DNA of 64,000 bases from an uncultured Alphaproteobacteria bacterium. GTDB taxonomy: Bacteria; Pseudomonadota; Alphaproteobacteria; Caulobacterales; Aquidulcibacteraceae. The notes under the pieces were generated by a model. It was given only the letters and a program-made list of their open reading frames with translations, had not been told where the DNA came from and ran no database searches. How positions within the stretch are numbered: the stretch's first letter is position 1; every line of letters starts with the position of its first letter. A program made the position numbers and the translations under genes. The stretch lies in the NCBI GenBank assembly GCA_902826245.1, contig CADEEA010000004.1, positions 1 to 64,000 on the forward strand. The letters run 5' to 3'. This document shows positions 3,377 through 33,068 of the stretch, in pieces.

Positions 3377-3385
3377 TGGAATCAC

Positions 3386-4462: not shown

Positions 4463-7400
4463 CTATAATGTTATGGTTAACTGCTTCTTCAACCCTGTGA
4501 CGCCATCTCGGCCCAATTGCGAGACCCGTATCAGCAGTGAGGTGGGCAAAAGCCCGAAATCCGCCGTCTGCTCGGCTGCAGTATAGGCATAGCCCGGCTG
4601 CGTCAGCTCCAGGCTGCGTTTCACGATAGCGCCATCGAGTATGTCCAGCAGGTAAGCTTCCGCCGCGGCGCCTATGGGCGGTTCTCCCGGTCCCCAGGAA
4701 TCGCCGGCGCTGGCGCAGCGCACCCAACTCAGCGCGACATCCCCGCTTGCGACGCGCTTTCCGCGCATATGCGCCGGCGCCCAGGGCCGCACCGCCGCAT
4801 GCGGCAGGGTCGCCATCAGCGCCGCTGCACGCGCATCGCTGACAAGCCCTCCCGTAGGCGGCGCGCGAAACGCCAGTGCTTCGTTCCATTCGTGTGCGCC
4901 GACATCGAGGCGCACGAGCCTTTCGTCGAGCTTCACGATCCGCGCGCCAACCGGGTGGGGCGCAGCCATTGCGTGCGCCGAACCTAATTGACCGCGCAGG
5001 AAGCCGGAGAGTTCGTACTCGTTGTCGCCCACCAGCACGCAATCGCGCGCCTGCACGATCTCCCATTCGGCCCCCGATTCAATCGCGAACACGTTGGCGC
5101 CGTCGAGCAGCGCCGCCTTAGTCGCGCTCGAGAGCGTTCCGCCATAGAGTTTGATGCGAATACGATTGCCGTCGTCCCAGCGCGCGACCGGCCCCGGCCA
5201 CAACGCCCACAACAATTCTCCCATGATCGCGGGCTGAGTTGCGATCGCACGCCGGCTCGCAATTGCGCCCGCATACACTTCGTGCGCACCAAGCCACGGC
5301 GCGGCGAACACAGCGGCAAGCGGGCGCTCCTCGGTTTCAGCGCCCGGCAATTGCGGTAGGTCCAGAACCGAAAACGCCGGCGTCGGCGCAATCGGGGGCG
5401 GCGCCGGCGCGGCGGGCTCGGCAAGGCGCACCTGCGCCGGAAACGCCGAGCGCGCGCGGCGCAATTCAATCCGCCTTTCTTCGGCATCCTCGATCCGCGC
5501 GATCTCGTATACATCGCCCCCGCCGAGCGTGACGCGATCCCCAGGCTCCAACGCCAAGTGCGCGGGGCCCAGAGCGATCTTCAACGCCTCCGCGTGCGCA
5601 CGCAGATCCGCCAGCACGCGCTGCGCGACGCCCTCGGCGGCTTCAGCTTCCAGCACCAAAGGCGCATCGAGCGAGACCGCGCCGCCTTCAGCCTTATCGA
5701 GCCTGCGGGCGCTGACATTGCCGATATGATAGTCCTGAGTAGGATCGAGAAAGCGCACGCGCACCTCGATCGGAGTCTCTGCGCTGTCGCCGCGTCCGGC
5801 GTAGAGTTCACCCGCCGCGTCCTCGGCGAGATCATCCGGCGCAATGGCGAGCGCGGCTTCAGCGGCGCGGTGGCGAAAGCGGACGACGCCACCTGACTCA
5901 GCGGCGCTGAAATCGTAGGCCGACATCAAGGGTTCAAGCGCATCACGCGCGCTTGCGGGCGCATCGACGATGTAGCCGCTGACCGCGCCCTGCAATGCGG
6001 CGACATCGACATCCGCAACTTCAGCGCGCGCGCACAGATGCGCCACCACCTCGCCCAGATCGGATAGCCCCGCGCGCCCGTTGAGCCAGTGCCCAAGCCG
6101 CCACGACGCGCCGTCAGTCCAGACATCTTTGCGCGCCGGGAACGCGGGGTGCGGGCGCGCATCGTAACACCAGAGCGCCATCTCCTCGATCATCGGTTTG
6201 CCGTTGAGGCTTGAGGTCGGATTGTTGGCGCCGCCGATTTCCCAATAGGAGAGGTACGCTTGCAGCATCCGGCGCTGGATCAGGTCGTCGCGCGCGCCGG
6301 TGGAAAACGGGGGCAGCGCGTTTTCATCGCTCTTGGCGTCGATGAAGAGATTGGGGGCGTTGGCGCCCTTGTCGACGGCGGGGCACCCCAGTTCGATAAA
6401 CCAGATCGGCTTCGACTGAGCGGTCCAAGCCGTCGGCGATCCTGCCCGTACGCCGCCCGGGCGATTATAGTGCGCGCGCGCCCAGAAATTGCGCACATCC
6501 TTGGCGCGGAACACCCATGGCTCACCATAGGCGCCGTCGCTGATGGTCGTGCGCGTCTGCGCGGTGCGCGCTGCGTCATTGGCGTAGAAGAAGTCGTAAT
6601 TCTCGCCCGCCTCGATGCGGCCGGAGAGATATTCCGGGTTATGAATGCTGGACGCGAGCGAAGCGTCAGCATGGGTCGAGCCCGAGCGCCAATCGGTAAG
6701 CGGCGGATACCAATCGATGCCGACAACATCGATGTTGGAATCGGCCCAGAGCGGATCGAGGTGAAAAAACACATCGCCGGTTCCATCTTGCGGCTGGTGG
6801 CCGCCATATTCACTCCAGTCGGCGGCGTAGGTAATCTTCGGCGTGGCGCCGAGCATCGCGCGCACGTCGGCGACCAAACTCTTCAACGCCGTCACCGCGG
6901 GATAGTTCGAAGCGCTGTCGCGCGCGGTGGTGAGGCCGCGCATTTCCGAACCGATTACGAACGCATCGACACCGCCCGCCAGCGCGGCGAGTTTGGCGTG
7001 GTGCAAAATGAAGCGGCGGTACGACCATTCGCTCGGCCCGGAATAGGTCGGCGCCCCGCCGCTGGCGCCAAAATGCGCCGGCGCTGCAGCTCCAAAGAAC
7101 GCGGCGACTTGCGATGTCGCAGCGCCCGATTTGTCGGGCGATCCTGGCTGACCGGCCGCTGGATGCAGTGTTATTCGCCCGCGCCATGGATAAGCCGCCT
7201 GCGCAGCCGCGCCATAGGGATCGGGCAACGCATTGCCCTGCTCCACATCCATCAGCACGAACGGATAAAGCCCGACTTTGTAGCCGCGCGCCTTCAGCTC
7301 GGTGATCGCCTGCAGCACGCAATCGTCGCTGGGTGTGCCGCCATAAGCTGGCGCCGCGTCGACTTGGCTTACAATATGTGCGCCCGCGCGCGTCACTCCG

Positions 7401-8338
7401 CCAGCGCGCCAGCTGATCGGCGTGGTTTCCTTGGCGGCGATCTCCACTCCAGGCTTGAGCAGGCAATTGCCGCAGCGCAGATCGTCGCCAAACCAGGCGA
7501 CCACCAGAAGCACGGTGTCGCAATTGGGAAAATCCGCTTTCAGCTGATCGAGTGAGACCAAAATATTGGCGCGGCCGCGTTCAGCATGAACATTTTCGGC
7601 GACCTCCTGCCCCGGCCCGTTGCGACGCAACACGGGGCTTGTGGCGTACACAAATTCCCCCGAGCCTGGGATCAGGCAAACGCTCTTGACCAATTCTTCA
7701 AAACGCGGGCCCGCATCTGGGGAAGGCGTAGCACGCATCACTTCGAACGAAAGCTGCGGGATCGTATTGCCGAAGCGCTCCAGGGCCATGTCCTCGAACA
7801 CGACATAAGCGAGCCCGCGATAGCCGGGCGCGTTGTCGGCGCCCTCAATGGCCTCGATTAAGGCGTCTGGCGTCTGCGTCTCCGAGCCCGCATGCAGGCG
7901 CCAGGCGAATTCCGAAAGATCAAGCTCCTCGCCATTGGCCCACACCCGCCCGATGCGCGCGACCTCGCCCTCGCACAACCCTACCGCAAAGGACAACGTG
8001 TAAGAATAAGTGCGACTGGTGAGGCGCGGCCCGCCTTTGCCGCCGACTTCTTCGGTATGGGCATGCTCCTTGAAGCGCGCGGCCCAGATCACCTGACCAG
8101 CCAACCGCACCCGACCATAAATGGCCGGGATCGAGGCGCCTTCGGATGACGCTTGCAGGTGCAGATCGGTGAGCCGCGCGCCTTCATGACGCAATTTCGG
8201 ACCGAACAATTGCTGGTCGATGCTGCGCCCGAGCGCTGCCCCCCCCGCCTGCAACAACGCGGCGCCAATCTGGCTCAAGGCGCCGGGCAGGCGCGAGCCG
8301 ATGGCTTTGCCGATCGTGGAGAGGACTAGTTCGGCCAT
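4463..8338 (-). CDS. GTA g15: baseplate megatron / host-specificity protein with TIM-barrel-like domain
   Basis: Largest GTA protein, 1291 aa from the ATG at 8338, which overlaps the end of g14 by 13 nt. A longer open frame upstream reads through g14 and is not used. It starts with a helical hydrophobic stretch (TIGKAIGSRLPGAL). The central part (about 400-750) looks like the GTA TIM-barrel-like glycoside-hydrolase fold (for example IDVVGIDWYPPLTDWR and WFIELGCP). The C-terminal part is like phage tail protein J/gp53 domains. In RcGTA this protein forms the baseplate and contacts the cell surface. It is the last gene of the cluster. Confidence 0.92.
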   Translation of the reverse strand: MAELVLSTIGKAIGSRLPGALSQIGAALLQAGGAALGRSIDQQLFGPKLRHEGARLTDLHLQASSEGASIPAIYGRVRLAGQVIWAARFKEHAHTEEVGGKGGPRLTSRTYSYTLSFAVGLCEGEVARIGRVWANGEELDLSEFAWRLHAGSETQTPDALIEAIEGADNAPGYRGLAYVVFEDMALERFGNTIPQLSFEVMRATPSPDAGPRFEELVKSVCLIPGSGEFVYATSPVLRRNGPGQEVAENVHAERGRANILVSLDQLKADFPNCDTVLLVVAWFGDDLRCGNCLLKPGVEIAAKETTPISWRAGGVTRAGAHIVSQVDAAPAYGGTPSDDCVLQAITELKARGYKVGLYPFVLMDVEQGNALPDPYGAAAQAAYPWRGRITLHPAAGQPGSPDKSGAATSQVAAFFGAAAPAHFGASGGAPTYSGPSEWSYRRFILHHAKLAALAGGVDAFVIGSEMRGLTTARDSASNYPAVTALKSLVADVRAMLGATPKITYAADWSEYGGHQPQDGTGDVFFHLDPLWADSNIDVVGIDWYPPLTDWRSGSTHADASLASSIHNPEYLSGRIEAGENYDFFYANDAARTAQTRTTISDGAYGEPWVFRAKDVRNFWARAHYNRPGGVRAGSPTAWTAQSKPIWFIELGCPAVDKGANAPNLFIDAKSDENALPPFSTGARDDLIQRRMLQAYLSYWEIGGANNPTSSLNGKPMIEEMALWCYDARPHPAFPARKDVWTDGASWRLGHWLNGRAGLSDLGEVVAHLCARAEVADVDVAALQGAVSGYIVDAPASARDALEPLMSAYDFSAAESGGVVRFRHRAAEAALAIAPDDLAEDAAGELYAGRGDSAETPIEVRVRFLDPTQDYHIGNVSARRLDKAEGGAVSLDAPLVLEAEAAEGVAQRVLADLRAHAEALKIALGPAHLALEPGDRVTLGGGDVYEIARIEDAEERRIELRRARSAFPAQVRLAEPAAPAPPPIAPTPAFSVLDLPQLPGAETEERPLAAVFAAPWLGAHEVYAGAIASRRAIATQPAIMGELLWALWPGPVARWDDGNRIRIKLYGGTLSSATKAALLDGANVFAIESGAEWEIVQARDCVLVGDNEYELSGFLRGQLGSAHAMAAPHPVGARIVKLDERLVRLDVGAHEWNEALAFRAPPTGGLVSDARAAALMATLPHAAVRPWAPAHMRGKRVASGDVALSWVRCASAGDSWGPGEPPIGAAAEAYLLDILDGAIVKRSLELTQPGYAYTAAEQTADFGLLPTSLLIRVSQLGRDGVTGLKKQLTITL

Positions 8339-8769
8339 GGGCTCACACCGGGAAAGGAAAATGCTGCGGCCGAACGCGCGCGCCACCACGGCGCATAGCG
8401 CGAGCGCACCACTGCGCGCCCCCAATAGGCGTGGATAAGCCGCTGCTCCTCGTCGAGAATGGCGGCGTGTTTTGCGGGGGAGTTTGCTTCCATGCGGAAA
8501 AGCAACACGTCGCCAGGCGCGGCGGCGTCGCGCTCGACCTCAACCAAGTGCCGTCGCGCCGCCTCCAACAGCGTCTCAGCGCCCTGCGCCTCGGCCCAAT
8601 CGGGCGTATAGGCGGGCGCAAGTTCCGGTTCGGCGCCGTAGAGTGCGCGCCAGACGCCGCGGATCAGTCCAAGACAATCGCAGCCTGCGCCTTTCGCACT
8701 GGCTTGATGGCGATATGGCGTGCCGATCCACTCGCGCGCTTCAGCGAGGATCACGTGACGGGAGATCAT
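8326..8769 (-). CDS. GTA g14: NlpC/P60 peptidoglycan peptidase
   Basis: Cell-wall peptidase of 147 aa that in RcGTA sits in the tail and helps cross the peptidoglycan. The catalytic Cys lies in GCDCLGLIRG (about 30) and the His in KHAAIL (about 104), in the NlpC/P60 order. The N-terminal AREWIGTPYRHQAS segment is also family-typical. It overlaps g13 by 4 nt and g15 by 13 nt. The length is normal for GTA g14. Confidence 0.93.
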   Translation of the reverse strand: MISRHVILAEAREWIGTPYRHQASAKGAGCDCLGLIRGVWRALYGAEPELAPAYTPDWAEAQGAETLLEAARRHLVEVERDAAAPGDVLLFRMEANSPAKHAAILDEEQRLIHAYWGRAVVRSRYAPWWRARSAAAFSFPGVSPWPN

Positions 8770-9644
8770 GAATAACGTGACGAGCCATCGAGAATCTGCC
8801 CCGCCGCCGGACGCGCTTGGATCGCGTCATTGCCAGGCATGTGGGGGAAACCGCGGAAATTGTCGGTGTTAGCGAATTTCGCTTTGCAGGTGGCAAAGCG
8901 CTTGTCGCAGCCGGCATAGATTGTGAACACTGAACCTGCCACGAGTGAGATCGTCGGCGCGTCCAGCAGTTCGATCACTGCGTCGGCGCCCTCGACCCGA
9001 TGCACAAGCACCTCGCTCTCCCCGCCGGCGCTCCACACCACACGCCCGCGGGTGAAAAATTCGGCGGCGAAGGCGCCGAGGCCCGACGCACTGAAGGAGC
9101 TTGAGCTGACCACGGCGGCCACCGTGGAACTGGCGCGAAACGCAGCGTTCTCTATGTCCTTGCCGCAACGCGCGTCGCCCAGGTCAGCGTCGCAGAAGCG
9201 CGAAAACACCCGCCCTACCGGCGTGTTCAGCGCAGCTTGCATGCCGCGCACTTCCGCTTCAAACGCCTGCGCGCCGCGACGCACCTCCCCGATGCGGCCT
9301 GAGAACAGATGCACACGCTGAGCGGGATCGCCCCAGTCCACGCGGTAGATTTCCACCTGTGCGCCATCCCAAAGCCCGCGCGCGAGATCCTCCTCGGTGA
9401 TCGCAGACGAAGAAAGCACGCCGGTCACGCTTGCGGTGTCCACATTGAGGCCGAGACTCTTGTCGACAGCGCCAGCGCGCAAGCTCGTGAGCGGCTCGCA
9501 GTCGAGCGCATCGAACACCAGCGGACGGTCGTGATCGGTGAAAGCAAACGATTGCCCATCGCGGCGGGAGAACACCCACACATGGGCGAATTTGGTGACG
9601 CCGGAAGCAAGCGCGCTGGTTATGGATGAGGGGATAGTTCTCAT
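8766..9644 (-). CDS. GTA g13: DUF2163 tail hub protein
   Basis: A 292-aa protein of the DUF2163 / phage BR0599 family. The N-terminal part (about 1-160) matches the DUF2163 pattern (FTDHDRPLVFDA, then RVDWGDP). The C-terminal part ends with the conserved KFANTDNFRGFPHMPG. Four cysteines at 151, 160, 246 and 253 pair as CX8C and CX6C. From memory, the characterised RcGTA hub was reported to hold an iron-sulfur cluster, and these would be the likely ligands here. It overlaps g14 by 4 nt and lies about 40 bp downstream of g12. Confidence 0.93.
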   Translation of the reverse strand: MRTIPSSITSALASGVTKFAHVWVFSRRDGQSFAFTDHDRPLVFDALDCEPLTSLRAGAVDKSLGLNVDTASVTGVLSSSAITEEDLARGLWDGAQVEIYRVDWGDPAQRVHLFSGRIGEVRRGAQAFEAEVRGMQAALNTPVGRVFSRFCDADLGDARCGKDIENAAFRASSTVAAVVSSSSFSASGLGAFAAEFFTRGRVVWSAGGESEVLVHRVEGADAVIELLDAPTISLVAGSVFTIYAGCDKRFATCKAKFANTDNFRGFPHMPGNDAIQARPAAGQILDGSSRYS

Positions 9645-9683
9645 ATACTCGTCAACTCAAAGCAGCTCCGCGTTGGTCATCGC

Positions 9684-10316
9684 CTACGCCAGTATCTCCA
9701 CCAGCGGCGCGCTGATTGCGCGTCCGGCGCCGAAGGCGTCGATGGAAAGGTCAAGCCGCTCGGTGTCAAAACGCACTGGCGTGTCGAAGGAGAAGCCCGC
9801 GGTTACTGTAGCGCCGCTTGCGGGCGGCGTGGTCAACGTCACTTGTCCGGTCACGGTGTCGACGCTGAAGCCGGCCGGCGCAAGCGCCACGCCATTGACC
9901 GCAATGCTCACGCTGCCGGCGACCGGTTTCGTAATCGGGCGCAGATACGCTTCCACGCCTGCACCGTAGCTCTTCTGGAGTTGAAACAGAGTTTGCGTCC
10001 CAGTACCGAAACCAAGCGACTGGTTCGCCGCCGGCGGAGTCGGGGAGGGCGCGCTGGAATTGTGGCAGAGCGGATGGCGGAGGCGGAAGCAAGGCGAGCG
10101 GCCGCGCCGCCCCTCGAAAACCGCGATCAGATCGTCCACCGGGTAAAGCGTACGCCCCGCCCCCCCGATGTCGTACCGCCGCCGCCCGTGCGCCCGGGGC
10201 GTATTGCGGTTCCCGCGCCGGGAGCCGAGCGTGACAATACCCACGCGCCGCTCCGGCCCGCCGCTAGCGCCAAGCGCGAACGGCAACGGCAGCAGCACCT
10301 CATGAAACGCACTCAC
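9684..10316 (-). CDS. GTA g12: DUF2460 distal tail protein
   Basis: A 210-aa protein of the DUF2460 (TIGR02217) family, the distal tail ring between tube and hub in RcGTA. Family signature pieces are visible: FRLRHPL in mid-protein, then GTGTQTLFQLQKSY, the RPITKPV segment, VDTVTGQVTLTTPP and the terminal FDTPVRFDTERLD. It overlaps the tape-measure gene by 4 nt. The N-terminal half is arginine-rich and less conserved, but no frameshift is evident. Confidence 0.9.
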   Translation of the reverse strand: MSAFHEVLLPLPFALGASGGPERRVGIVTLGSRRGNRNTPRAHGRRRYDIGGAGRTLYPVDDLIAVFEGRRGRSPCFRLRHPLCHNSSAPSPTPPAANQSLGFGTGTQTLFQLQKSYGAGVEAYLRPITKPVAGSVSIAVNGVALAPAGFSVDTVTGQVTLTTPPASGATVTAGFSFDTPVRFDTERLDLSIDAFGAGRAISAPLVEILA

Positions 10317-10735
10317 AGATTGCGTCCTCCATAGGCGACCGCGCGTGCGATCGCGGCAGCGATCTGGCCCTGATTGCGGGCGATGGAATTGGCGTCCCCG
10401 CCCGCACCCATGTGGAAGTGCACCGACACCGGGTTTGCTGCCTGCGCAAAATTGGACGGCCCACCGGAGCGCGAACCTCCCCCGCCTGCATTCAGGATGC
10501 GGTCGAGTGCGACTTTGGCGAGCTCTTCGAGGATGGTCTTGGCCATACGCTTGAAAGCCGCCTCGCCTCCGCCCGCGGCTGCGCCGAGCGCACGGGCGAT
10601 GCGCTCGCCCGCGCGCTCGAACGAATTCGCGACCTCGTCGGCGGCCTGGCGCGCCGGACCTTGGGCGAACGCAGCAAGCGCTGCGGATGCGGAGGCGAGT
10701 TCGGCTTCGACGCCGGAGACATCAGGAATGGTCAT
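10313..10735 (-). CDS. GTA g11: short tail tape measure protein
   Basis: A 140-aa, alanine-rich, mostly helical protein (about 5-85, including GERIARALGAAAGG and MAKTILEELAKVALDRIL) ending in a glycine-rich tail. Position between the tail chaperone and DUF2460 and the Phage_TMP-like C-terminus identify it as the tape measure that sets tail length. GTA tails are short, and this is shorter than the roughly 220 aa I recall for RcGTA g11. Start ATG at 10735 lies inside the end of g10.1 (14-nt overlap). Confidence 0.8.
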   Translation of the reverse strand: MTIPDVSGVEAELASASAALAAFAQGPARQAADEVANSFERAGERIARALGAAAGGGEAAFKRMAKTILEELAKVALDRILNAGGGGSRSGGPSNFAQAANPVSVHFHMGAGGDANSIARNQGQIAAAIARAVAYGGRNL

Positions 10736-10922
10736 GTGGAAAATCCGGGAATTGCAAAGTCAGGTAATTGAAATCGCGTCGGGCGAGCGGGCCAATGCGC
10801 GTGACTGACGTCGAGAGCGCGCGCCATTCTTTGAGGCTCAACTTCCAGAAAAGCTGCGGGGGCACGCCGAGTTCGTTCGCCGCCGCAAGGAGTGCGCGCC
10901 ATGGCGTTGCTTCAGCCTTCAT
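10722..10922 (-). CDS. GTA g10.1: phage tail assembly chaperone (TAC) family
   Basis: A 66-aa protein from the ATG at 10922, reading MKAEATPWRALL. A longer frame upstream is antisense-free but lies inside g10 and is not used. The segment PPQLFWKLSLKEWRALS is characteristic of the small TAC proteins encoded after g10 in GTAs. Such chaperones load the tape measure during tail assembly. It overlaps g10 by 11 nt and g11 by 14 nt, which suggests translational coupling. Confidence 0.82.
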   Translation of the reverse strand: MKAEATPWRALLAAANELGVPPQLFWKLSLKEWRALSTSVTRIGPLARRDFNYLTLQFPDFPHDHS

Positions 10923-11229
10923 CGAACGCGGCTTGGAAAGCCTGCGCAACCGCACCCGCGGCCGCGCGTGGATCGATCTGCGCCGTCGCAAGCGCAGCCG
11001 CGCTCAGAGGCTCACCCCCGCCTGCGGTCAGCGCGCTCAGCACGACGATAAGATCCGCGGCGCTCAAGTGCGCGAGGCGTTCGCCCAGATCGGCAAACGA
11101 AACCGCATCGAACGCCGCCTCAAGCTCTGCAAGCGCGCCCAGGGTGACGCACAGCCGCCGCTCTCGCCCGTCGATCTCCAGCAGAACTTCGCCACGCGCG
11201 CGATTGTGAGGTTGACGCGGGTGTTGCAT
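10912..11229 (-). CDS. GTA g10: GTA-gp10 family tail assembly protein
   Basis: A 105-aa member of the GTA-gp10 (DUF3356-like) family. It shows the typical order: a basic N-terminus (PRQPHNRARGEV), a beta strand LLEIDGRERRLCVTLGALAELE, and a helical C-terminus with LIVVLSALTAGGG. It is thought to act as a tail-tube assembly chaperone with g10.1. It lies 3 bp after the tail-tube gene. Confidence 0.88.
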   Translation of the reverse strand: MQHPRQPHNRARGEVLLEIDGRERRLCVTLGALAELEAAFDAVSFADLGERLAHLSAADLIVVLSALTAGGGEPLSAAALATAQIDPRAAAGAVAQAFQAAFDEG

Positions 11230-11232
11230 GCT

Positions 11233-11649
11233 TCAAATCGCCGTGAAAGTGACGACGCCGGCTGAGGCAAGCGAGATGGAGAACGCGGCTTCGCCGTCAT
11301 GATCGCCTGAGTATTCGAGCGCCTCGATCAGGAACGGCCCCTGCAGAACCCCAAAGGCTGGGATCACAAGTTGAAAGTTTCGCGAGCTCTGCGCGAAGAA
11401 CACAGACTGGATAATCGCGTCAGACGCCGCGTCCTTGAACACGCCTGCGCCCGATACCGATGCCGATTTGACGCCCGCCCCCGCTATGAGTTCGCGCCAC
11501 GCGCTGGCGCTTTCTCCCGATGTGCCGTCGACACTCCTTGCATTGAGCGCGATGGACTTCGCGCGAATGCCGGCGACAGTTGTGAATGTCTCGGTGGTCG
11601 CGCCGTCGCCGATCTTGATCAGAACGTCGCGACCTTTCTGGCCTGCCAT
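11233..11649 (-). CDS. GTA g9: major tail (tube) protein
   Basis: A 138-aa TP901-1-type major tail protein. Typical features are the N-terminal GRDVLIKIGDG, then TVAGIRAKSIALN, the central WRELIAGAGVKSASVSG, and the terminal beta strands ending GVVTFTAI. It polymerises into the tail tube. It is followed by g10 within 3 bp and preceded by g8 within 8 bp. Length is normal for the family. Confidence 0.92.
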   Translation of the reverse strand: MAGQKGRDVLIKIGDGATTETFTTVAGIRAKSIALNARSVDGTSGESASAWRELIAGAGVKSASVSGAGVFKDAASDAIIQSVFFAQSSRNFQLVIPAFGVLQGPFLIEALEYSGDHDGEAAFSISLASAGVVTFTAI

Positions 11650-11657
11650 GATAACTC

Positions 11658-12056
11658 CTATTCCGTGATCGCGCGCAAACGCAGCACGCCATGGGTGGTG
11701 CGCCCATCGCCGGAGCGGAACACGTCGGCGAATTGAGCGAACAAAAACACAAGCGTGCGCCCACTCAAGGTGAGCGGTGCGTTGTGCAAGGCCGCCCGCA
11801 GCGCGGCGATAACGTCAAGCGTCTCTGCGCGGCCGCCATAGCGCGACCACACATGCAGCGTCAGCGCATGTTCGATCGCGCTGACGCCAGCAACGTCGGC
11901 GCTACGGCTCTCCACGCGCCCGAGCGAGACATAAGGAAACACCGGATCCAGCGGCGGATCGTCATAGATGCGGGCGGGGTCGCCGAGTACAGCCTTGACG
12001 CCCGCGTCGGCCATGGCGCCGGCGCGCACTGCCGCCGCGAGAACGCGATCACTCAT
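11658..12056 (-). CDS. GTA g8: DUF3168 tail terminator protein
   Basis: A 132-aa DUF3168-family protein that closes the tail tube at the head end. The pattern is typical: KAVLGDPARIYDDPPLDPVFPYVSLG in the N-terminal half, ALTLHVWSRYGG in the middle, and a C-terminal strand GVLRLRAITE. It overlaps g7 by 4 nt. Confidence 0.9.
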   Translation of the reverse strand: MSDRVLAAAVRAGAMADAGVKAVLGDPARIYDDPPLDPVFPYVSLGRVESRSADVAGVSAIEHALTLHVWSRYGGRAETLDVIAALRAALHNAPLTLSGRTLVFLFAQFADVFRSGDGRTTHGVLRLRAITE

Positions 12057-12373
12057 AGCCTCTCTTCCTCAGTCAGTAGCTCGATGCGGGCAGAACCTTC
12101 GTCGCGAACGGCCAGGATCGTGAACACGCGCGTTCCCCAGACCACGCGCCAGCCCGCGCGCACGTCGGTGCGGCGGTTGATCGCAAACGAGTACGCTGTG
12201 CTCGAGGGTGCGGCGTCGAAGTCGGCGTTCTGCCCACCGCCGCCCGCGCCGATTTCGGCCCATACATCGCCCTGGGTCGTCCAGGTGATCGCCGCGCCGC
12301 CGATATTGTCAGCGGCGCGCGTTGGACTTTCCAGGCGCACGCGCGCGCGCATGCGCCCGATCGCTTCGGTCAT
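12053..12373 (-). CDS. GTA g7: head-tail adaptor / closure protein
   Basis: A 106-aa member of the phage head-tail joining family (SPP1 gp16 type). The N-terminal IGRMRARVRLESPTR, the central DVWAEIGAGGG, and the closing WGTRVFTILAVRDEGSARIELLTEEE are diagnostic. The adaptor connects the neck ring made by g6 to the tail terminator g8. It overlaps g8 by 4 nt and follows g6 by 10 bp. Confidence 0.9.
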   Translation of the reverse strand: MTEAIGRMRARVRLESPTRAADNIGGAAITWTTQGDVWAEIGAGGGGQNADFDAAPSSTAYSFAINRRTDVRAGWRVVWGTRVFTILAVRDEGSARIELLTEEERL

Positions 12374-12383
12374 GCGTGCGCCC

Positions 12384-12944
12384 TCACAACCGCACCGGTG
12401 CGAATGGCGCCATCAGCGCGCGCGCCGCCTCCGGGATGGGTGTTTCGCCCTGGCGCGCCTCGTAAAGAGCGCCGATCACTTGCAGCGCCGCCAGACGCAG
12501 CGCCACGGGTAAGGAGGCGGCGCTGGCGGCGTAGCCCGCATCATAATCGATCTCGATGCCGCCCGCGCTACGCAACGTCGCTGGCACGCCGGCCTCGAAC
12601 ACAAGGCGCGGACGATCGCCCGCCCCCTCCAATCGATAGCGGGAAGGATCGATCACGCTCTGCGATCCGTTGTCGGCGATGAGCCGGACGGCGACGATAT
12701 TAGTCACCGGCCCAAGGCCCAGCAATGCGCCGGCTACGGAATCGCGCCGCCAAATGTCGAGGCTCTCGCGCACACGCCGCGTGATCAACGCGCGCCCGCA
12801 CGCCACCTCCACCGCCTCGCGCGCGGCGGCGATCAGAGTGGTAAGCAACGCATCTTCGCTCGTGTGGTCGACACGCAGAAAGAGCTTCGCCTCGGAGAGC
12901 GTGACGGGTTCGCTCGCTGGCGGCGTGAGGGTGGTGATGGTCAT
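12384..12944 (-). CDS. GTA g6: head-tail connector protein
   Basis: A 186-aa connector (phiE125 gp8 / HK97 gp6-like) from the ATG at 12944; a TTG two codons earlier is also possible. The N-terminus carries the signature PVTLSEAKLFLRVDHTSEDA, then LIAAAREAVEVACGRAL. It binds the portal and begins the neck. The start codon is preceded closely by the heptad hairpin at 12953-13049, and no strong Shine-Dalgarno is visible, so translation may depend on structure there. Confidence 0.9.
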   Translation of the reverse strand: MTITTLTPPASEPVTLSEAKLFLRVDHTSEDALLTTLIAAAREAVEVACGRALITRRVRESLDIWRRDSVAGALLGLGPVTNIVAVRLIADNGSQSVIDPSRYRLEGAGDRPRLVFEAGVPATLRSAGGIEIDYDAGYAASAASLPVALRLAALQVIGALYEARQGETPIPEAARALMAPFAPVRL

Positions 12945-12952
12945 TTTCAACT

Positions 12953-13049
12953 CGGCAGTCGGCAGTCGGCAGTCGGCAATTGGCAGACGATAGTCAGCGG
13001 CGGCAGCAGGGAATTAACCCGACTGCCGACCGCCGACTGCCGACTGCCG
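12953..13049 (-). repeat. heptad-repeat inverted repeat between GTA capsid gene and g6
   Basis: Left arm 12953-12980 has four units of CGGCAGT (the last CGGCAAT). Right arm 13022-13049 has four complementary units (ACTGCCG, one ACCGCCG). The arms match at 26 of 28 positions with a 41-nt loop. In the transcribed minus strand both mismatches become G-U pairs, so the mRNA can form an unbroken 28-bp stem. It lies just after the capsid stop (13055) and just before the g6 start, where it could act as a processing or stability element or an attenuator. Confidence 0.8.
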
Positions 13050-13054
13050 CGAAA

Positions 13055-14257
13055 TCAGCTTACCGCGAAGCGCAGCACTTTGATGGCGTCGAAATTCTGC
13101 ACGCCGCCGCCTACGCGTTTGGTGACGTAGAACATGACGTACGGCTTGTTGGAGAACGGATCGCGCAACACGCGCACGCCGGCGCGGTCGACGATCAGAT
13201 AGCCGCGCTGGAAGTCGCCAAACGCGATCGAATTCGAACTCGCGGCGATGTCGGGCATGTCTTCAAGCTCGGTGACGGGATATCCAAGCAAGGTCGCGCC
13301 GCCACGATCGTTCGGCTCCCAGATGTACTGCCCGGATGCATCCTTCAACTTCCGCACCGCCGACACGGTTTTCCGATTCATCGTAAAGCGGCCGTTCTGG
13401 CGGAACTGCGCTTTCGGCGCGTAGACAAGATCGATGATCTTATCGACTGGCGCGGATGCTGCGAAGGCGCCGGCGACGCCGGTGGCGATATACCCGATCT
13501 GACCCCACACATGGCTCGCATCGGCTACCATGGTGTAGTTCAAGAAGCCCTTCGGCTTGTTGACGCCATCGCCATTGACGAACACTGCCCGCTCCTGGGC
13601 GGAGAACGCATCCTCCACTTCGCCCGCGATCCACTCCTCCAGATTGACGAAAGCATCGTCCAGAAGCGCTTGGGTGGCGGCCAGGTTGGCGTAGAGTTCC
13701 GCAGTCGGAAAATCCAGCAACGCAAGCGTGGGCGAGGTCGTTTCCGTGCGTGCGCCGGTTTCGGCCGCCCAGCCCGAACCCGACTGGGTGAGGCTGATCG
13801 GCTTGCGGAACAGGTTTGCGCTTGTGGTGCGGACGCCCGCGATTTCGCGCATTGGCGAAGCAGCGCGCAGGCGGCTCTCGATCAGGCGATCGAGTTCAGC
13901 GGGGGCGATGTAGCCGCCATCGGCGGAGACGCCTACCGAAAGCGCCTTGGCTTCGAACTGCCCGAGCGCCGCAATGTCGCCGCGGCGAAGATAAGAACTC
14001 CAGGCGGACTTGTGTTCGGACTCCGCGGGATCGCCGCCAAGGGTAGGCCTGCGTCCAGCCAGCGCGGCGCGCTCGATCAACGATTTCTGCTCAGTCAGCG
14101 CGCGGTCGATGCGATCGACCTTTTCCTCGAGCAGCACATCGGCGCGTTGTCTCTCGATGGCGTCGAGGCGTGCATCATTGGCGGTCTTGAACTCCTCGAA
14201 CGCGCGCATGAGCGCATCCTGGCCGCCCGGTTGGACGGCCTTCACTTCTTTTCTCAC
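13055..14257 (-). CDS. GTA g5: HK97-fold major capsid protein
   Basis: About 400 aa. I prefer GTG at 14257 because AAGGAG lies 6 nt upstream; a GTG 15 nt earlier is possible. An N-terminal coiled-coil scaffold segment (about 10-60, FEEFKTANDARLDAIERQRAD) is expected to be removed by the g4 protease. The HK97 fold follows, with YIAPAELDRLIESRLR and the C-terminal RDPFSNKPYVMFYVTKRVGGG. It builds the icosahedral or oblate head. It is followed by the heptad hairpin. Confidence 0.94.
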   Translation of the reverse strand: MRKEVKAVQPGGQDALMRAFEEFKTANDARLDAIERQRADVLLEEKVDRIDRALTEQKSLIERAALAGRRPTLGGDPAESEHKSAWSSYLRRGDIAALGQFEAKALSVGVSADGGYIAPAELDRLIESRLRAASPMREIAGVRTTSANLFRKPISLTQSGSGWAAETGARTETTSPTLALLDFPTAELYANLAATQALLDDAFVNLEEWIAGEVEDAFSAQERAVFVNGDGVNKPKGFLNYTMVADASHVWGQIGYIATGVAGAFAASAPVDKIIDLVYAPKAQFRQNGRFTMNRKTVSAVRKLKDASGQYIWEPNDRGGATLLGYPVTELEDMPDIAASSNSIAFGDFQRGYLIVDRAGVRVLRDPFSNKPYVMFYVTKRVGGGVQNFDAIKVLRFAVS

Positions 14258-14272
14258 GTCATTCTCCTTCAC

Positions 14273-14686
14273 TTAAGCAGCGCGGGCGAGCCCTCGCGCC
14301 AGGGCCAGCCGCGCTTGCGGCTGCATCGGGTGTGTCACGATCGACACCTCCAGAAGCTCGATTTCCTCAATGGTGCGGCCAAGGGCGTGCTTGTGCGCGA
14401 CCAGCGGCACAAAGCCGATCGACAGGCCGTCGACGCCGCGCATCAGCATGCGCCGCGCGCGCGCAGCGCCAGGCTGATCGTCGCGGATTGCGCCACGAAC
14501 GTAGAGCCCCCGAGCGTCCTCGCGCGCGCTTTCCCAAAAGCCTGCGAGCAGACGCTGCTCGTGCTCGACCAACATGGGCAGCACCGCGGTGCGCCGCTGC
14601 AGGCTCGCGGCAAACGCGCCGGCGCGCACGACGTCGCCCATCGCGTCCGCGACGCCAAACAGCGAAGCGTACCCCTCGATTATCAT
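14273..14686 (-). CDS. GTA g4: prohead protease (HK97 type, U35)
   Basis: A 137-aa serine protease that trims the capsid scaffold. It starts IIEGYASLFGVADAMGD, has the catalytic His in MLVEHEQRLLAG (about 42) and the Ser in GLSIGFVP (about 90), and ends with LLEVSIVTHPMQPQA, all as expected for the family. It overlaps g3.5 by 4 nt and lies directly before the capsid gene. Confidence 0.93.
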   Translation of the reverse strand: MIIEGYASLFGVADAMGDVVRAGAFAASLQRRTAVLPMLVEHEQRLLAGFWESAREDARGLYVRGAIRDDQPGAARARRMLMRGVDGLSIGFVPLVAHKHALGRTIEEIELLEVSIVTHPMQPQARLALARGLARAA

Positions 14687-14907
14687 CGGGTGTCGAGCCT
14701 CTGCTCAATGCGGGCGAGCGAGCGACGCGCCTCCCCCAATTGTTCCTCTAGCCGGGCGAGCCGCTCGGCGACTTCGGCCTGGGCGCCGACAGCGTGCTCG
14801 ACCTCGTCGAGGCGCGCCGCCGCCCGCCCGGCCCAGATCAGGCCGCCCGCACTCTCCAAGAACAGCGCAAGGATGAGCGCGTAGGTCACGCGTGGATCGA
14901 ACTTCAT
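14683..14907 (-). CDS. GTA g3.5: small membrane / coiled-coil protein
   Basis: A 74-aa protein with an N-terminal membrane helix (about 9-27, ALILALFLESAGGLIWAG) and a heptad-rich coiled coil (about 35-74). A small protein of this layout between portal and protease is a constant of RcGTA-like clusters, where its role is not well defined. It overlaps both neighbours by 4 nt (ATGA). Confidence 0.85.
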   Translation of the reverse strand: MKFDPRVTYALILALFLESAGGLIWAGRAAARLDEVEHAVGAQAEVAERLARLEEQLGEARRSLARIEQRLDTR

Positions 14908-16055
14908 GAGCGTGCGGTTTGGGGCGCAGCAACGCCGACCATCGCGCGCTTCTCTTCGGCGCTCAAAAAATCAGCGCCAGCCACCCGCGCCCAGAGCGCT
15001 TCGCGCTCCACCGCGAGCGCAGGGACTGAATCAACATCGACCTTGATTGCCGCAGGTTCGTTCCAACGCGCGCCCAGCCAGCCCTCGAGCGCGCGCGCGG
15101 CTTTCTGCGCCAGCGGCAGCGCGGTATGGCGCCAGAACGCGAGATTGGCTTCGCGATAATTGGAATAGGTGTTGTCGCCGGGAATGCCGAGCAACATGGG
15201 CGGTACGCCAAACGCGAGCGCAATATCCCGGGCGGCGGCATGACGCGCCTCGATGAAGTCCATGTCCGACGGCGACAGCGACATCGGCCGCCAATCGAGG
15301 CCGCCCTCGAGCACCATGGGACGCCCGGCATTGGCCGCTCCCACATGGATCTCGTCCAATTCCTGACGGATGCGGCGATATTGCTCCTCGCTTAAGCGAT
15401 CGCCGCCGCCCGCGCCGGTGAACACCAGCGCGCCGGAGGGGCGCGCTGCATTGTCGATCAACGCCTTGTTCCAGGCGCCCCCGGAATTGTGGATGTCCAC
15501 GGCATAGGCCGCCGCTTCCATCGGCGAGAGCCCGTACCAATCGTCAGAGGGATGAAAGAGCTTCAGGTGCAGGATCGGCGCCTCGCCCGAAAGCGGATCG
15601 CGTTCGAAGCGGCGCACCTCAGCGCCGACACGGTGCTCCCAGCCAATCGGCCAACCGTCCGGCCCCGGCAGCACCCGCATGCGATCGGGGCGCAGAACGT
15701 AAAGCTCCGATGGCGCGCTCGCATCGATGCTCGACGCCTCGAGATAAGAATTGCCGCTCACTTGGAGATGGCCGTAGAAATTTTCGAGCAATTCGATTCC
15801 GGTCTGTTCCGGATTGGGCCGCGCCAGCAAATTTGCGAGCGGGTGGTTTTCGGGCCCCACAACAAGCGGGGCGCTGGCGGCCGCCTCGGCGATGAAGCGA
15901 ACGCAGCGATAAGCGATGGCGTTGCGTTGGTAGCCTTCGCGCGCAAACGCAGCCGGATCGCGCGCCGACCAGGTTGGTGCGGCAAGATCGTGCCAAGACA
16001 AGAATTTCCGCTCCGTGCGCTGCGGCGCGCGGAGTTTGCGTAACCAGTCAAACAT
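14904..16055 (-). CDS. GTA g3: portal protein
   Basis: A 383-aa HK97/SPP1-like portal from ATG at 16055, with AGGAAA 6 nt upstream. A longer open frame reads back into the terminase gene and is discarded. Signatures: ERKFLSWHDL near the N-terminus, GYQRNAIAYRCVRFIAEAAAS, VSGNSYLEA, and FGVPPMLLGIPGDNTYSNY. The portal forms the dodecameric DNA-entry ring and docks the terminase. It lies 11 bp after the terminase stop. Confidence 0.94.
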   Translation of the reverse strand: MFDWLRKLRAPQRTERKFLSWHDLAAPTWSARDPAAFAREGYQRNAIAYRCVRFIAEAAASAPLVVGPENHPLANLLARPNPEQTGIELLENFYGHLQVSGNSYLEASSIDASAPSELYVLRPDRMRVLPGPDGWPIGWEHRVGAEVRRFERDPLSGEAPILHLKLFHPSDDWYGLSPMEAAAYAVDIHNSGGAWNKALIDNAARPSGALVFTGAGGGDRLSEEQYRRIRQELDEIHVGAANAGRPMVLEGGLDWRPMSLSPSDMDFIEARHAAARDIALAFGVPPMLLGIPGDNTYSNYREANLAFWRHTALPLAQKAARALEGWLGARWNEPAAIKVDVDSVPALAVEREALWARVAGADFLSAEEKRAMVGVAAPQTARS

Positions 16056-16066
16056 GCTTTTTCCTG

Positions 16067-17380
16067 TTACAACAACCTGATCCGCGGCTGCGCGCCGCCC
16101 ATCAACAGGTCCGTCAGAGCCCAAACCAGCGCGTCGAGACGATCGGGGCTGTGGTTGAAGCCCTCGGCGCCGAACGAACACATCTCGTCCTCCAACGCTG
16201 GAAACGCCGCGGCGTGCTTGACGCGACCCTGCGCATAGAATGCCGCTATCGGTTCGGCGCGCGCGCGCTTGCCTTCGCTCGCACGCACGAGGTGCACGAA
16301 AATGTCGGGCGCGGCCGCCTGTAGTACTGCCCGAACCATTTCTCCGCCATTGTTGGCTTCCGCGACAATCGCGTGTGCGCCAAGCGAACGCGCGAGCGAA
16401 GCAGCTTTTTGCGCCCATACATGAGGCGCAACGCCCTGCAGGCTTGAATCAGCGAGCACCAGGGCTTGACGGCGCCACCCCTCGCCCCAAGCGCCGGCGG
16501 CCACAATTCCGCAATGGTCGGCTTTTTCGCCAATGCTGGCGGGCGGATCGACCGCAACGACGATGCGATCGAACTCGCCATGCTCGCGCGTGCGCGCCGC
16601 TTCGAGGTCGGCGCGTCGCCACAGTGCGCCTTCGACATCTTCGACAAGCTCGCCCGAAAGTTCCTGGCGCTGGCGTGCTGAACCGGTCCAGCGCTGGTGC
16701 AACGCGTCGATGAAATCCGGCGCCAGATTGGCGGCGTTGGTCCAAGTAGCCGCGCGAGTAACCGCCGCATCCGGCTGCGCAATCAGCTGCTTCAGCGCAC
16801 GGATCGGCCGCGGCGTGGTCGTGACGGCCAGTCGCGGCGCATCGCCGAGGCGCATTCCGTGCGCAAGTGCGGCGAGCGTTTCGTCCGGATATGCCCAATA
16901 GCACAATTCGTCGGCCCAGGCTGCGTCGAATTGGGGGCCACGCAAGCTCTCGGGGTCTTCAGCCGAAAACCCAAACGCCTGCGCGCCATTCGCCCACACC
17001 AGCCGGCGCCGGCTGGCTTCGTAGTTCGGGCGCTCATATGGGAGTGAGCGTATCCCGGACTGTCCTTCGATCATCACTTCGCGCACGTCGTGAAATGTCG
17101 GCCCGATAAGAGCGATGCGGCTGGCGCGGCCACGGCGTCCGAGCGCGGAGACCCATTCCGCCCCCGCGCGCGACTTGCCGGCGCCGCGTCCGCCCAAGAA
17201 CAGCCAGGTGCGCCAAGCGCCCTCCGGAGCGCGCTGCGCGGACTGCGACCAGAAATCCCAATCATTCCTGAGCAGCTCCAGATCCGATGCGCTCAAGCAC
17301 GTCGAGAGGTGCGCCTGCAGCTGCTGCTGCAACGTAGCGACCAATGCGATGTCTGAGCTCGGCGCGTAATTGTTCTTCAT
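16067..17380 (-). CDS. GTA g2: terminase large subunit
   Basis: A 437-aa packaging ATPase/nuclease from ATG at 17380, with GGAG 7 nt upstream. Walker A is GGRGAGKS at 63-70. The Walker B-like acidic segment is FDAAWADEL. The C-terminal RNase H-fold nuclease includes the DRIVVAVDPPAS strand and the late ALVWALTDLL helix. It packages roughly headful host DNA. The start overlaps the end of g1 by about 119 nt, more than the other junctions. A TTG at 17296 would reduce this but lacks a ribosome site. Confidence 0.93.
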   Translation of the reverse strand: MKNNYAPSSDIALVATLQQQLQAHLSTCLSASDLELLRNDWDFWSQSAQRAPEGAWRTWLFLGGRGAGKSRAGAEWVSALGRRGRASRIALIGPTFHDVREVMIEGQSGIRSLPYERPNYEASRRRLVWANGAQAFGFSAEDPESLRGPQFDAAWADELCYWAYPDETLAALAHGMRLGDAPRLAVTTTPRPIRALKQLIAQPDAAVTRAATWTNAANLAPDFIDALHQRWTGSARQRQELSGELVEDVEGALWRRADLEAARTREHGEFDRIVVAVDPPASIGEKADHCGIVAAGAWGEGWRRQALVLADSSLQGVAPHVWAQKAASLARSLGAHAIVAEANNGGEMVRAVLQAAAPDIFVHLVRASEGKRARAEPIAAFYAQGRVKHAAAFPALEDEMCSFGAEGFNHSPDRLDALVWALTDLLMGGAQPRIRLL

Positions 17381-17837
17381 CTTGCTCCGGGGCTGTTGCG
17401 CGCTCGTCGGCCAGAAACTCCGCCACATCGCGTTCAGCCCGCACCAGGGCGACAACGGCCTTGGCGCGGCGCTCCGCTTCCGCCGCTTCGCCCGCGTTCA
17501 GAATGCTCGCGGTTTCATCCAACATTGACCGAAGGCGTGCGCCCAAATCCTTTGCCATCTTCCTGTCTGTCGCTTCCCGAATGGGCTGGCCCAATTTCTT
17601 GCCCACTTTTTCGACCGTGCCAGAACCATAAGCGGGTTCCGGTTCGGTCGGATTTTTTTTGCTGAGACCCAGGAGTTTCAAGGCCCGGAGGGTCGTGAAC
17701 GCGTGGGTAGCGGCGCTGAACCCCGCAATTTCTAAGGCCTCCTTCTCCGGCGTCGCGCAGCAATAGGACGCGCCCCAAGCGTCGGCCGTTCCAGGGGCGG
17801 CAATTCGGCGACGGGACACTAGCCAGAATTCGGCCAT
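17262..17837 (-). CDS. GTA g1-like protein (possible small terminase), start uncertain
   Basis: The open frame from ATG at 17837 gives 191 aa. The C-terminal half (from about residue 90: KMAKDLGARLRSMLDETAS, then RRAKAVVALVRAERDVAEFL) is charged, helical and resembles the poorly conserved g1 products that precede GTA terminases and serve as small terminase. The first 70 residues look weak and have no ribosome site. The true start may lie further in, leaving room for the GTA promoter between here and the divergent PBP gene at 17872. Frame choice is supported by the absence of a better frame and by position. Confidence 0.6.
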   Translation of the reverse strand: MAEFWLVSRRRIAAPGTADAWGASYCCATPEKEALEIAGFSAATHAFTTLRALKLLGLSKKNPTEPEPAYGSGTVEKVGKKLGQPIREATDRKMAKDLGARLRSMLDETASILNAGEAAEAERRAKAVVALVRAERDVAEFLADERATAPEQDEEQLRAELRHRIGRYVAAAAAGAPLDVLERIGSGAAQE

Positions 17838-17871
17838 ACCCTTATTGGACACCACGCTTTCGGAGACCTTC

Positions 17872-30969: not shown

Positions 30970-31410
30970 GTGAGCGTCTCAGAAGCTGCGAAAGAACTAG
31001 CGGACGAGTTTGCGCTCCTGCCCGACTGGGAGGAGCGCATTTCGTATCTTATCGACCTGGGCAAAGCGCTGGCGCCTCTCAGCGAAAGCGAACGCGACGA
31101 AGCCGCCCGCGTGCGTGGGTGCGTAAGCCGCGTTTGGCTGGTGTGCGAGACACGCGCTGAAACGCCCGGAAAGCTGCATTTTCGCGGCGATTCCGATGCG
31201 CACTTGGTGCGCGGCGAGATCGCACTTCTGTTGCGCTTGTTCTCGGGCCGCTCACCCGGCGAGATCGCCGAAGCGGACCCACGGGCGATTTTCGCACAAC
31301 TTGGCCTCAAGGACGCGCTCACTATGCAGCGCTCCAACGGGCTGTTCGCGATGATGACGCGCATGCAGGACTACGCCCGCGAGGCGCTTAACGGCGCCGC
31401 TGCGAGCTGA
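30970..31410 (+). CDS. sufE: SufE-family sulfur acceptor
   Basis: A 146-aa protein starting at GTG 30970 that takes persulfide sulfur from SufS cysteine desulfurase for Fe-S cluster assembly. The active Cys51 is in the conserved VRGCVSRVWL. The C-terminal GLKDALTMQRSNGLFAMM segment is also diagnostic. It stands alone and is not within a suf operon. It overlaps the convergent DUF6456 gene by 40 bp at the 3' ends. Confidence 0.92.
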   Translation: MSVSEAAKELADEFALLPDWEERISYLIDLGKALAPLSESERDEAARVRGCVSRVWLVCETRAETPGKLHFRGDSDAHLVRGEIALLLRLFSGRSPGEIAEADPRAIFAQLGLKDALTMQRSNGLFAMMTRMQDYAREALNGAAAS

Positions 31411-32120
31411 GCCAAGCCAAGCTTCAACGCAAGCTTACCGGAGCGAGCCGGCCAGGCCTCCGTGCGCTCGATCTCTTCCAGTCCTTCTTCCTTCAAACAC
31501 ACGCCCTCGACCACGCGCCGCAGCGGCGCGGCCAGACGGGCAAGAGCGTCACTGTAGTGTCGCTGCGCATCGCAACGCGCGGCGAGGGCAGCCTCCTGAG
31601 CGCTGCTGGCGCCGCGGGCGCCCTTCGCGTTGGGTGGTGCGGTCCAATCGGATCCGCGCACCAAGCCCGACTGTGAGATATCCCAATGGGTGCGCAGCCG
31701 TGCCGCGGCTAGCAATTCGGAATCTTCAAGCCAAGGCCGCCCCTCGGCGTCACGGAGCGCGGCCAGACGGCGCAGCACGCGGCTCTGCTCGTACCCGCGC
31801 GCGACGTGGACGCCGCCTTCGCGATCCATCACGCTTCTTTCGATCACCGCGCCGTGCTGTGCCGCGTAGGTGTCGTTTGGCGGCGCCTGCATTCTGCGCA
31901 CTTGAGCGCGCCCCGGTTCGGTGATCGCATAGCCCAATGCGCCGGGCAGCGGCGCAACCGCGCCCGCGGACACAAGCGCGTCTTTCTCCGCCCTGGTCAA
32001 TTTCACCCCAGCCCGTCGTCGTTTGTCTCCGTTGGGAAACACACAGAAGCGCCCGTGATACTCCGCCAGCACCGCGCGCGGCTGTACAAGGCGCAACAAA
32101 GCTCGCTCCCCGGGGCTCAT
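31371..32120 (-). CDS. DUF6456 protein with sigma-like HTH end
   Basis: A 249-aa protein found mainly in alphaproteobacteria. The N-terminal third looks like a winged helix of its own (VKLTRAEKDALVSAGAVAP, then YAITEPGRAQVRRM). The C-terminal DUF6456 region contains ESRVLRRLAAL-like text (here EQSRVLRRLAALRD), LLAAARLRTHWDIS and the closing WPARSGKLALKLGLAQLA. The last 50 residues resemble an ECF-type HTH. It follows a DnaA-C-like HTH gene with a 4-nt overlap, and both are likely regulators of unknown targets. Confidence 0.85.
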   Translation of the reverse strand: MSPGERALLRLVQPRAVLAEYHGRFCVFPNGDKRRRAGVKLTRAEKDALVSAGAVAPLPGALGYAITEPGRAQVRRMQAPPNDTYAAQHGAVIERSVMDREGGVHVARGYEQSRVLRRLAALRDAEGRPWLEDSELLAAARLRTHWDISQSGLVRGSDWTAPPNAKGARGASSAQEAALAARCDAQRHYSDALARLAAPLRRVVEGVCLKEEGLEEIERTEAWPARSGKLALKLGLAQLAAAPLSASRA

Positions 32121-32556: not shown

Positions 32557-32572
32557 TTCCTATTCATAGGAA
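32557..32572. promoter_or_regulatory. AT-rich palindrome between mucR and the DnaA-like gene
   Basis: TTCCTAT-TC-ATAGGAA is a perfect 7-bp inverted repeat flanked by T6 tracts on both sides, in otherwise GC-rich DNA. AT-rich tracts of this kind are where MucR/Ros proteins bind, so it is a candidate operator for the downstream gene. On the plus strand it resembles a weak hairpin plus T-run terminator, but no plus-strand gene ends there. Confidence 0.45.
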
Positions 32573-32581
32573 TTTTTTCCG

Positions 32582-32992: not shown

Positions 32993-33068
32993 CTTGGTCA
33001 GATTGCAATAATTACTGAAGCGCAAGTATAGCCGAGAAAATCGCTCCCTTCAATCAAGTACTCCAGAA

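Follow-up and report, generated by a model that had tools for sequence, protein, structure and literature searches.

A complete RcGTA-type gene transfer agent cluster with neighbouring gafYZ homologues in an uncultured bacterium of the Aquidulcibacteraceae

The first 64,000 nucleotides of contig CADEEA010000004.1 (assembly GCA_902826245.1), called the window below, come from an uncultured alphaproteobacterium of the family Aquidulcibacteraceae (Caulobacterales). They carry a complete and unbroken gene cluster of the type that codes for the Rhodobacter capsulatus gene transfer agent (GTA), RcGTA, and homologues of the activators GafY and GafZ are encoded in the same block, at a distance of about 14 kb. 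It is probable that the locus directs the production of a working, inducible agent. The locus is assigned to the type I GTAs, tamed viruses, and the agent is predicted to package random host DNA. The genome of the window, G000, is a draft of 3.23 Mb in 104 contigs.

The cluster is composed of 17 RcGTA-type head and tail genes (g1 to g15 plus g3.5 and g10.1) that run on the minus strand from 17558 to 4463 in the RcGTA order. They are open and tightly coupled, as an earlier note made from the sequence had stated: none is interrupted by a stop codon or a frameshift and neighbours overlap or are spaced by 0-39 bp, apart from a gap of 110 bp between g5 and g6. The putative small terminase gene g1 (17262..17558) overlaps the start of the large terminase gene g2 (16067..17380; PF03237/PF17289), which is separated by 23 bp from the portal gene g3 (14904..16043; PF04860). 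These are followed by g3.5 (14683..14907), recognized by position and conservation in relatives and devoid of a family match, the prohead protease gene g4 (S78; 14273..14686; PF04586) and the HK97 major capsid protein gene g5 (13055..14272; PF05065). The connector region codes for the head-tail connector g6 (12384..12944; PF05135), the head completion protein or stopper g7 (12053..12373; PF05521) and the tail terminator/completion protein g8 (11658..12056; PF11367). The tail genes are those of the tail tube g9 (11233..11649; PF06199), g10 of the GTA-gp10 family (10912..11229; PF11836), the tail assembly chaperone g10.1 (10722..10922, start uncertain; PF09550), the tape measure g11 (10313..10735; PF09718), the distal tail protein g12 (9684..10316; PF09343, DUF2460), the baseplate hub g13 (8766..9644; PF09931/PF09356, Gp84 hub), the NlpC/P60 cell-wall peptidase g14 (8326..8769; PF00877, TIGR02219) and the megatron g15, a protein of 1291 amino acids with a GTA TIM barrel (4463..8338, the start being a corrected coordinate; PF13547, 1.1e-137).

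These assignments were made with Pfam, PHROGs and NCBIfam, which recognize terminase, portal, protease, HK97 capsid, connectors, tail tube, chaperone, distal tail, hub, peptidase and megatron. The NCBIfam model GTA_megatron (NF048004) gives g15 a score of 1661 bits, about double its equivalog threshold of 800, and g13 is named by the same resource 'phage/gene transfer agent baseplate hub protein'. For six of the eight proteins compared with PDB sequences the best match is a chain of the R. capsulatus GTA particle: capsid (Rcc01687, 9.1e-94), portal (Rcc01684, 2.2e-119), tail tube (Rcc01691, 5.2e-42), distal tail (Rcc01695, 2.4e-50), hub (1.5e-58) and megatron (6.8e-300). The comparison gave nothing relevant for g11 and g1. 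No integrase, replication, repressor or other foreign gene is found among the minus-strand genes of the cluster, overlapping plus-strand frames not having been family-scanned; to this extent the earlier note's statement that such genes, and lysis genes, are absent from inside the cluster is borne out. The cluster has the same GC content as its surroundings. Its capsid protein is 68-95% identical to those of the ten nearest named loci (L001-L008, L013 and L028, of 53 loci returned), from Hyphomonadaceae, Caulobacteraceae/Caulobacterales, Terricaulis and Alphaproteobacteria metagenome-assembled genomes (MAGs). An exchange of the capsid gene between lineages, considered because the identity is 92-95% with three of these relatives and 68-78% with the other seven, was dropped because the gene tree and the cluster tree show no supported conflict.

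The putative activator genes lie in the window 13.8 kb upstream of the g1 start. The gene gafZ (31371..32120, minus strand; PF20057, 1e-23) codes for a putative anti-terminator with a DUF6456 domain and overlaps by 4 bp gafY (32117..32473, minus strand; PF08299, 4.1e-11), which codes for a putative activator with a helix-turn-helix (HTH) resembling DnaA domain IV. The pair is flanked upstream by a mucR/ros-type regulator gene, its conserved neighbour (32582..33025, minus strand; PF05443, 5.2e-51), and downstream by sufE. DUF6456 has one match in the whole genome, the gafZ of the window, and the DnaA C-terminal domain has two, the stronger in a 472-residue frame that is presumably DnaA and the other in gafY. 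The earlier note had expected a GafA-like activator in the genome of a functional agent, which is what these genes provide, and had placed the regulators away from the cluster, a view that their position, recurring in relatives, does not support.

Linkage between activators and structural genes extends well beyond this genome. Among 60 genomes of the family, gafZ is detected in 34 (a count that omits weak matches below the cut-off), the megatron domain GTA_TIM in 41 and both in 22; they share a contig in 14 of these, always 12-25 kb apart, and lie on different draft contigs in the other eight. Among 249 genomes of the order, GTA_TIM is found in 186 and gafZ in 122. Outside the family, 31 of the 46 same-contig pairs among the matches listed are within 60 kb (by family, 20 of 25, 9 of 18 and 2 of 3), a hand count that leaves out the split gafZ of G165; random placement in 3 Mb would give about 4%. 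The block mucR-gafY-gafZ-sufE...PBP-GTA-dnaJ is found again across the genus, in several of the family's other genera, though not in every one, and in two families besides. The fuller order mrp-mucR-gafY-gafZ-sufE-...-RF3-DUF2336-ABCF-PBP-GTA-dnaJ is common to G147 and, less completely, to G233, both from other families, and gafYZ are directly upstream of g1/g2 in G074, G153, G082 and G137. An unlinked arrangement is exemplified by G188 and G196, of one genus, with gafZ and GTA_TIM 1.8 Mb apart. In the literature the activators of Rhodobacterales and Caulobacter are located away from the cluster, and full-text searches, whose coverage takes in few subscription journals, returned no statement of a linkage of gafYZ to the structural cluster. 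The linkage is most simply explained as an ancient shared position of activator and structural genes that Rhodobacter and Caulobacter would have lost later. In two genomes, G021 (L197) and G023 (L199-L200), gafY stands beside sufE, gafZ is undetected and GTA genes remain, the G023 stretch being without g7-g11; these are possible GTAs without an anti-terminator. Some absences of gafZ may reflect limits of the DUF6456 model, as a published search with OrthoFinder recovered gafA homologues from 196 of 208 genomes that carry a GTA (PMC9765227).

Purifying selection acts on every structural gene. The earlier note had proposed this as a check, and pairwise Nei-Gojobori ratios of non-synonymous to synonymous substitution (dN/dS) against G058, the closest fully comparable relative, range over the 17 genes from 0.052 (g3) to 0.256 (g10.1), with g1, g3 and g15 taken with longer 5' ends than the coordinates given above. 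These values are approximate since dS is 0.48-1.13 and the overlapping frames g1/g2 and g10/g10.1 lower their ratios. Against the more distant G048 (L002) the same genes give 0.06-0.48, and six genes compared with L001 give 0.05-0.37. The activators are at 0.10 (gafZ) and 0.04 (gafY), with dS of 1.4 and 2.7 and so partly saturated; the flanking PBP and dnaJ genes are at 0.05 and 0.02.

The completeness of the cluster is informative because many genomes of the genus have lost part or most of it in place. Both flanks, PBP and dnaJ, are on one contig in 21 of the 30 genus genomes, which are those that can be assessed. The complete set is present in ten (G000, G048, G057, G054, G042, G044, G047, G034, G058 and G039), with several frame breaks in G054 and one in g5 of G047. 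The other eleven (G033, G036, G051, G046, G053, G035, G055, G031, G032, G052 and G037) have a deletion between PBP and dnaJ with remnants in place. On a tree of the flanking proteins (27 rows, 25 of them labelled, including one deletion in another genus) complete and deleted states require seven changes, at least six of them forced by well-supported branches, and the remnants lead us to read these changes as losses. In all eleven deleted genomes late parts of the g15 3' end are left beside dnaJ, as if something there were needed, perhaps a dnaJ promoter.

Three of the deleted genomes, G035 (L145), G037 (L181) and G046 (L141-L142), share the same codon-exact in-frame fusion, left by a deletion of about 10 kb, that joins portal residue ~193 to megatron residue ~1056. 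A single clade of the three, a group chosen after the junctions had been seen, is rejected with p-AU of 3e-37 for the flanks, 0.012 for the portal part and 0.001 for the megatron part. G051 is near-identical to G037 in the flanks and yet has a different deletion; the G037 sequence is a scaffold that contains a run of N near the junction. The fused frames are open and have dN/dS like the complete genomes, most of the divergence possibly predating the deletions. Recurrent deletion, an exchanged allele, regain and a selected fusion are all candidate causes. A sequence repeat was discarded as the cause of the recurrent junction, only 1-4 bases being shared there (eight of the ten intact-junction genomes were readable).

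The earlier note's description of the cluster as complete and in canonical order stands for gene order and gene set and needs qualification for g11. The g11 proteins of G000 (140 amino acids), G058 and G048, of 136-140 amino acids, are without about 33 residues that carry the motif YLVGERGPE, and the motif occurs nowhere in the window. The block is present in all 11 other aligned, unbroken family members, whose g11 has 167-178 amino acids, and a six-frame scan located the motif or a GENGPE variant in eight more (G054, G036, G014, G005, G018, G021, G008 and G009), which brings the total to 19 other family genomes. The same scan was negative for G016, for four genomes from a single genus of a different family and for most Hyphomicrobiales loci, so the block is not indispensable. 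The cluster tree groups G000, G058 and G048 at modest support (86/90), and the flank tree does not. RcGTA g11 is described as a helix of 113 residues, then 83 residues in strands and loops, then a C-terminal helix (PMC7296036); the missing block maps between the two helices. Because it is not the helix, no claim on tail length is made from g11, whose structure prediction is weak (pLDDT 71, pTM 0.37).

Several observations weigh against a working agent activated by its linked gafYZ genes. The genome is a draft, 93.6% complete, and no lysis genes were found, either in the cluster or by a search for one endolysin family, PF05838, which we take to be that of the RcGTA endolysin; this gave no match in the genome and none in control genomes either, LypABC not having been searched. 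Loss of the g11 block is possibly a first defect, though g11 has a dN/dS of 0.11. No linkage is seen in the stretches examined of G005, G008 and G018, the gafYZ segment is inverted in G029, and some genera have GTA genes and no detectable DUF6456. Full-length gafZ frames are kept in eight of the eleven deleted genomes, G046 included, and gafYZ dN/dS in pairs with deleted genomes is mostly in the range of others, so the presence of gafZ is not proof of an active agent. The activators are also damaged in complete-cluster genomes: gafY of G047 has 50 amino acids, and gafY and gafZ of G054 are both broken, perhaps by assembly errors.

Such observations can be arranged into other explanations. If the locus were a recently inactivated relic, its genes would still be open while the agent no longer works, for example through the g11 deletion, as a step on the path of loss that 11 of 21 genomes of the genus have taken. 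The state of g11 fits this explanation, which we consider unlikely: the purifying selection on all 17 genes, g11 included (0.108), was measured between G000 and G058, of the same g11 state, and is found also with G048, equally without the block. Selection between genomes that share the loss of the block implies that it is probably older than the G000-G058 split. That the genes are those of phage heads and tails is, by itself, also what would be seen in an ordinary prophage, or in what is left of a phage, with a past of packaging its own genome. The lack of integrase, replication and repressor genes inside, the same chromosomal position in many genomes, a megatron above the GTA equivalog cut-off and a GC content that matches the surroundings make this highly improbable.

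GafY was first described as HdaB, a protein that acts on replication initiation. The gafYZ genes might accordingly be linked to the cluster by chance or old neighbourhood only and have another role than GTA activation here. Retention of full-length gafZ after most cluster deletions, with gafYZ dN/dS not higher in most pairs, is in agreement with this, as is the mucR-gafY-gafZ-sufE order in Hyphomicrobiales, for which the accessible part of PMC9638019 mentions no GTA linkage. A separate role is nevertheless quite improbable in view of the recurrence of the linkage in four families, of the three deleted genomes (G031, G053 and G032) in which gafZ is only a fragment and of Caulobacter, where gafYZ are necessary and sufficient for GTA production (PMC9632790). 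A working agent under the control of its linked activators is retained as the probable reading. A bolder proposal, which we hold doubtful, is that the Caulobacterales GTA was never truly dispersed: structural genes and GafYZ would form one ancient inherited unit, left by a single prophage, with Caulobacter and Rhodobacter in a derived, scattered state. Within this unit deletions would repeatedly switch the cluster off, and the shared portal-megatron fusion, present in three lineages that do not form a clade, would then reflect a deletion allele that recurs or is exchanged, not random decay.

The mechanism of induction can be outlined by analogy with Caulobacter. A RogA-like repressor of the LexA family would hold gafYZ off; on its release, GafY and IHF together would bring sigma-70 RNA polymerase to a promoter in front of g1, and GafZ would enable the polymerase to pass terminators. 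Particles would then package random host DNA by means of a small terminase without a DNA-binding HTH, and the cell would lyse through genes not found here. A candidate RogA is G000:C11:60452 (L177:1249-1869), the only LexA-family (S24-type) repressor found besides LexA. The start of its gene is preceded at 46-57 bp by an exact GGAA-N4-TTCC, the inverted repeat known for RogA in Caulobacter (PMC9632790). The protein keeps the LexA Ser/Lys positions by eye, unlike the description of Caulobacter RogA, and might still be cleavable on DNA damage.

A single exact copy of the same motif (32569..32580) is found 107 bp before gafY. In 25 genomes with a readable gafY start, G000 included, the 200 bp upstream (only 83 bp in one case) have the exact motif in five and at most one mismatch in 17, the background being 0.059 per 200 bp. 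The motif alone is weak because its 50 sites in the genome compare with 45 for a reversed control, and 22 of 100 window shuffles reach the two sites of the window. The evidence for this putative operator is its conserved place, not the motif alone. An XRE gene at 2589-3050 was rejected as a GTA regulator, with no match among the relatives' loci L116-L177 that were examined. This HTH gene and a small frame at 3047-3385 are situated between dnaJ and conserved downstream genes and look like an antitoxin-type insertion.

The earlier note gave the cluster an extent of 4463..17837; g1 most likely starts at 17558, not at 17837. The frame is open as far as 18026 and many relatives align only from the start near 17558; the best-fitting start gives 95-100 amino acids in ten of 13 aligned relatives (98 here). 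The segment 17559-17837 is therefore probably upstream region, and start-codon comparison suggests a probable leader/promoter region, divergent from the PBP gene, at 17559..17871. A wrongly annotated start of the first cluster gene has a parallel in Caulobacter (PMC11150451). Position, size and conservation argue for g1 as a putative small terminase; it is predicted to be all-helical (pLDDT 82, pTM 0.52) and has no family or PDB-sequence match, nor any among the 24 hits of a fold search better than E 2.4. Terminators and promoters in the cluster show no excess over shuffled sequence (13 against 12.5 and 2 against 2.1) and no GafY, IHF or GafZ sites were resolved upstream of g1. A strongly conserved element in the 17822-17840 region, GGTATGGCCGAATTCTGGC (minus strand), and a GATA...TATCC inverted repeat lie between PBP and g1; they persist in genomes that have lost the GTA and so are perhaps tied to the PBP gene.

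Descriptions of GTAs distribute them over several distant loci, which makes it difficult to deduce their regulation from the sequence. Where activators and structural genes recur as one block, inducibility can at once be put to the test in uncultured relatives, and the block would be a sign that GafYZ arrived together with the ancestral phage. Within the genus, complete clusters, several separate deletions and partial activator loss occur in one chromosomal context, a natural experiment in which the benefit of a GTA and the timing of its loss are directly testable.

Classification as RcGTA-type (alphaproteobacterial type I) follows from the gene order, in which g1 and g3.5 are assigned by position only, the megatron, the lack of integrase, replication and repressor genes on the minus strand, purifying selection and vertical inheritance at a fixed chromosomal position, relatives and genomes from two additional families having the same flanks. 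The activators are classified as a GafYZ pair from the overlap of a DnaA domain IV-like gene with a gene for DUF6456, with a RogA-type operator sequence upstream. The closest named relatives are Hyphomonadaceae/Caulobacterales MAGs and present members of the Rhodogtaviriformidae are restricted to Rhodobacterales (PMC9662315), so the locus is not filed under that family. Further GTA literature is available (PMC13236601, PMC6854486, PMC7947584).

The locus resembles RcGTA in its 17-gene head-tail cluster (count from PMC9765227) with the same order, and in capsid, portal, tail tube, distal tail, hub and megatron that are sequence homologues. It differs in its activator, split into gafY and gafZ and linked to the cluster, whereas the gafA of Rhodobacterales is a single gene usually flanked by lipA and gua1 (PMC6363796), and in a g11 of 140 residues compared to ~216 (113+83+20) in RcGTA (PMC7296036). 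With the Caulobacter agent it has in common the split gafYZ and a RogA-type GGAA-N4-TTCC operator, which is present as two sites in Caulobacter (PMC9632790) and as one exact site here. The Caulobacter gafYZ (CCNA_01111-12) and cluster (CCNA_02861-80) are apart by locus tag, while they are linked here. According to a 2024 review (PMC11841831) the Caulobacter agent has no known TerS, in contrast to the conserved 98-residue g1 that precedes terL in the window. The 150-bp direct repeats that form a terminator after the first Caulobacter gene have no counterpart at g1-g3 here, where no direct repeat of at least 40 bp was found. The Hyphomicrobiales gafA region (mucR, a DnaA-like gene, a gafA-like gene and sufE) has the same micro-synteny, already published (PMC9638019), with linkage to the structural cluster unmentioned in what is accessible of that report.

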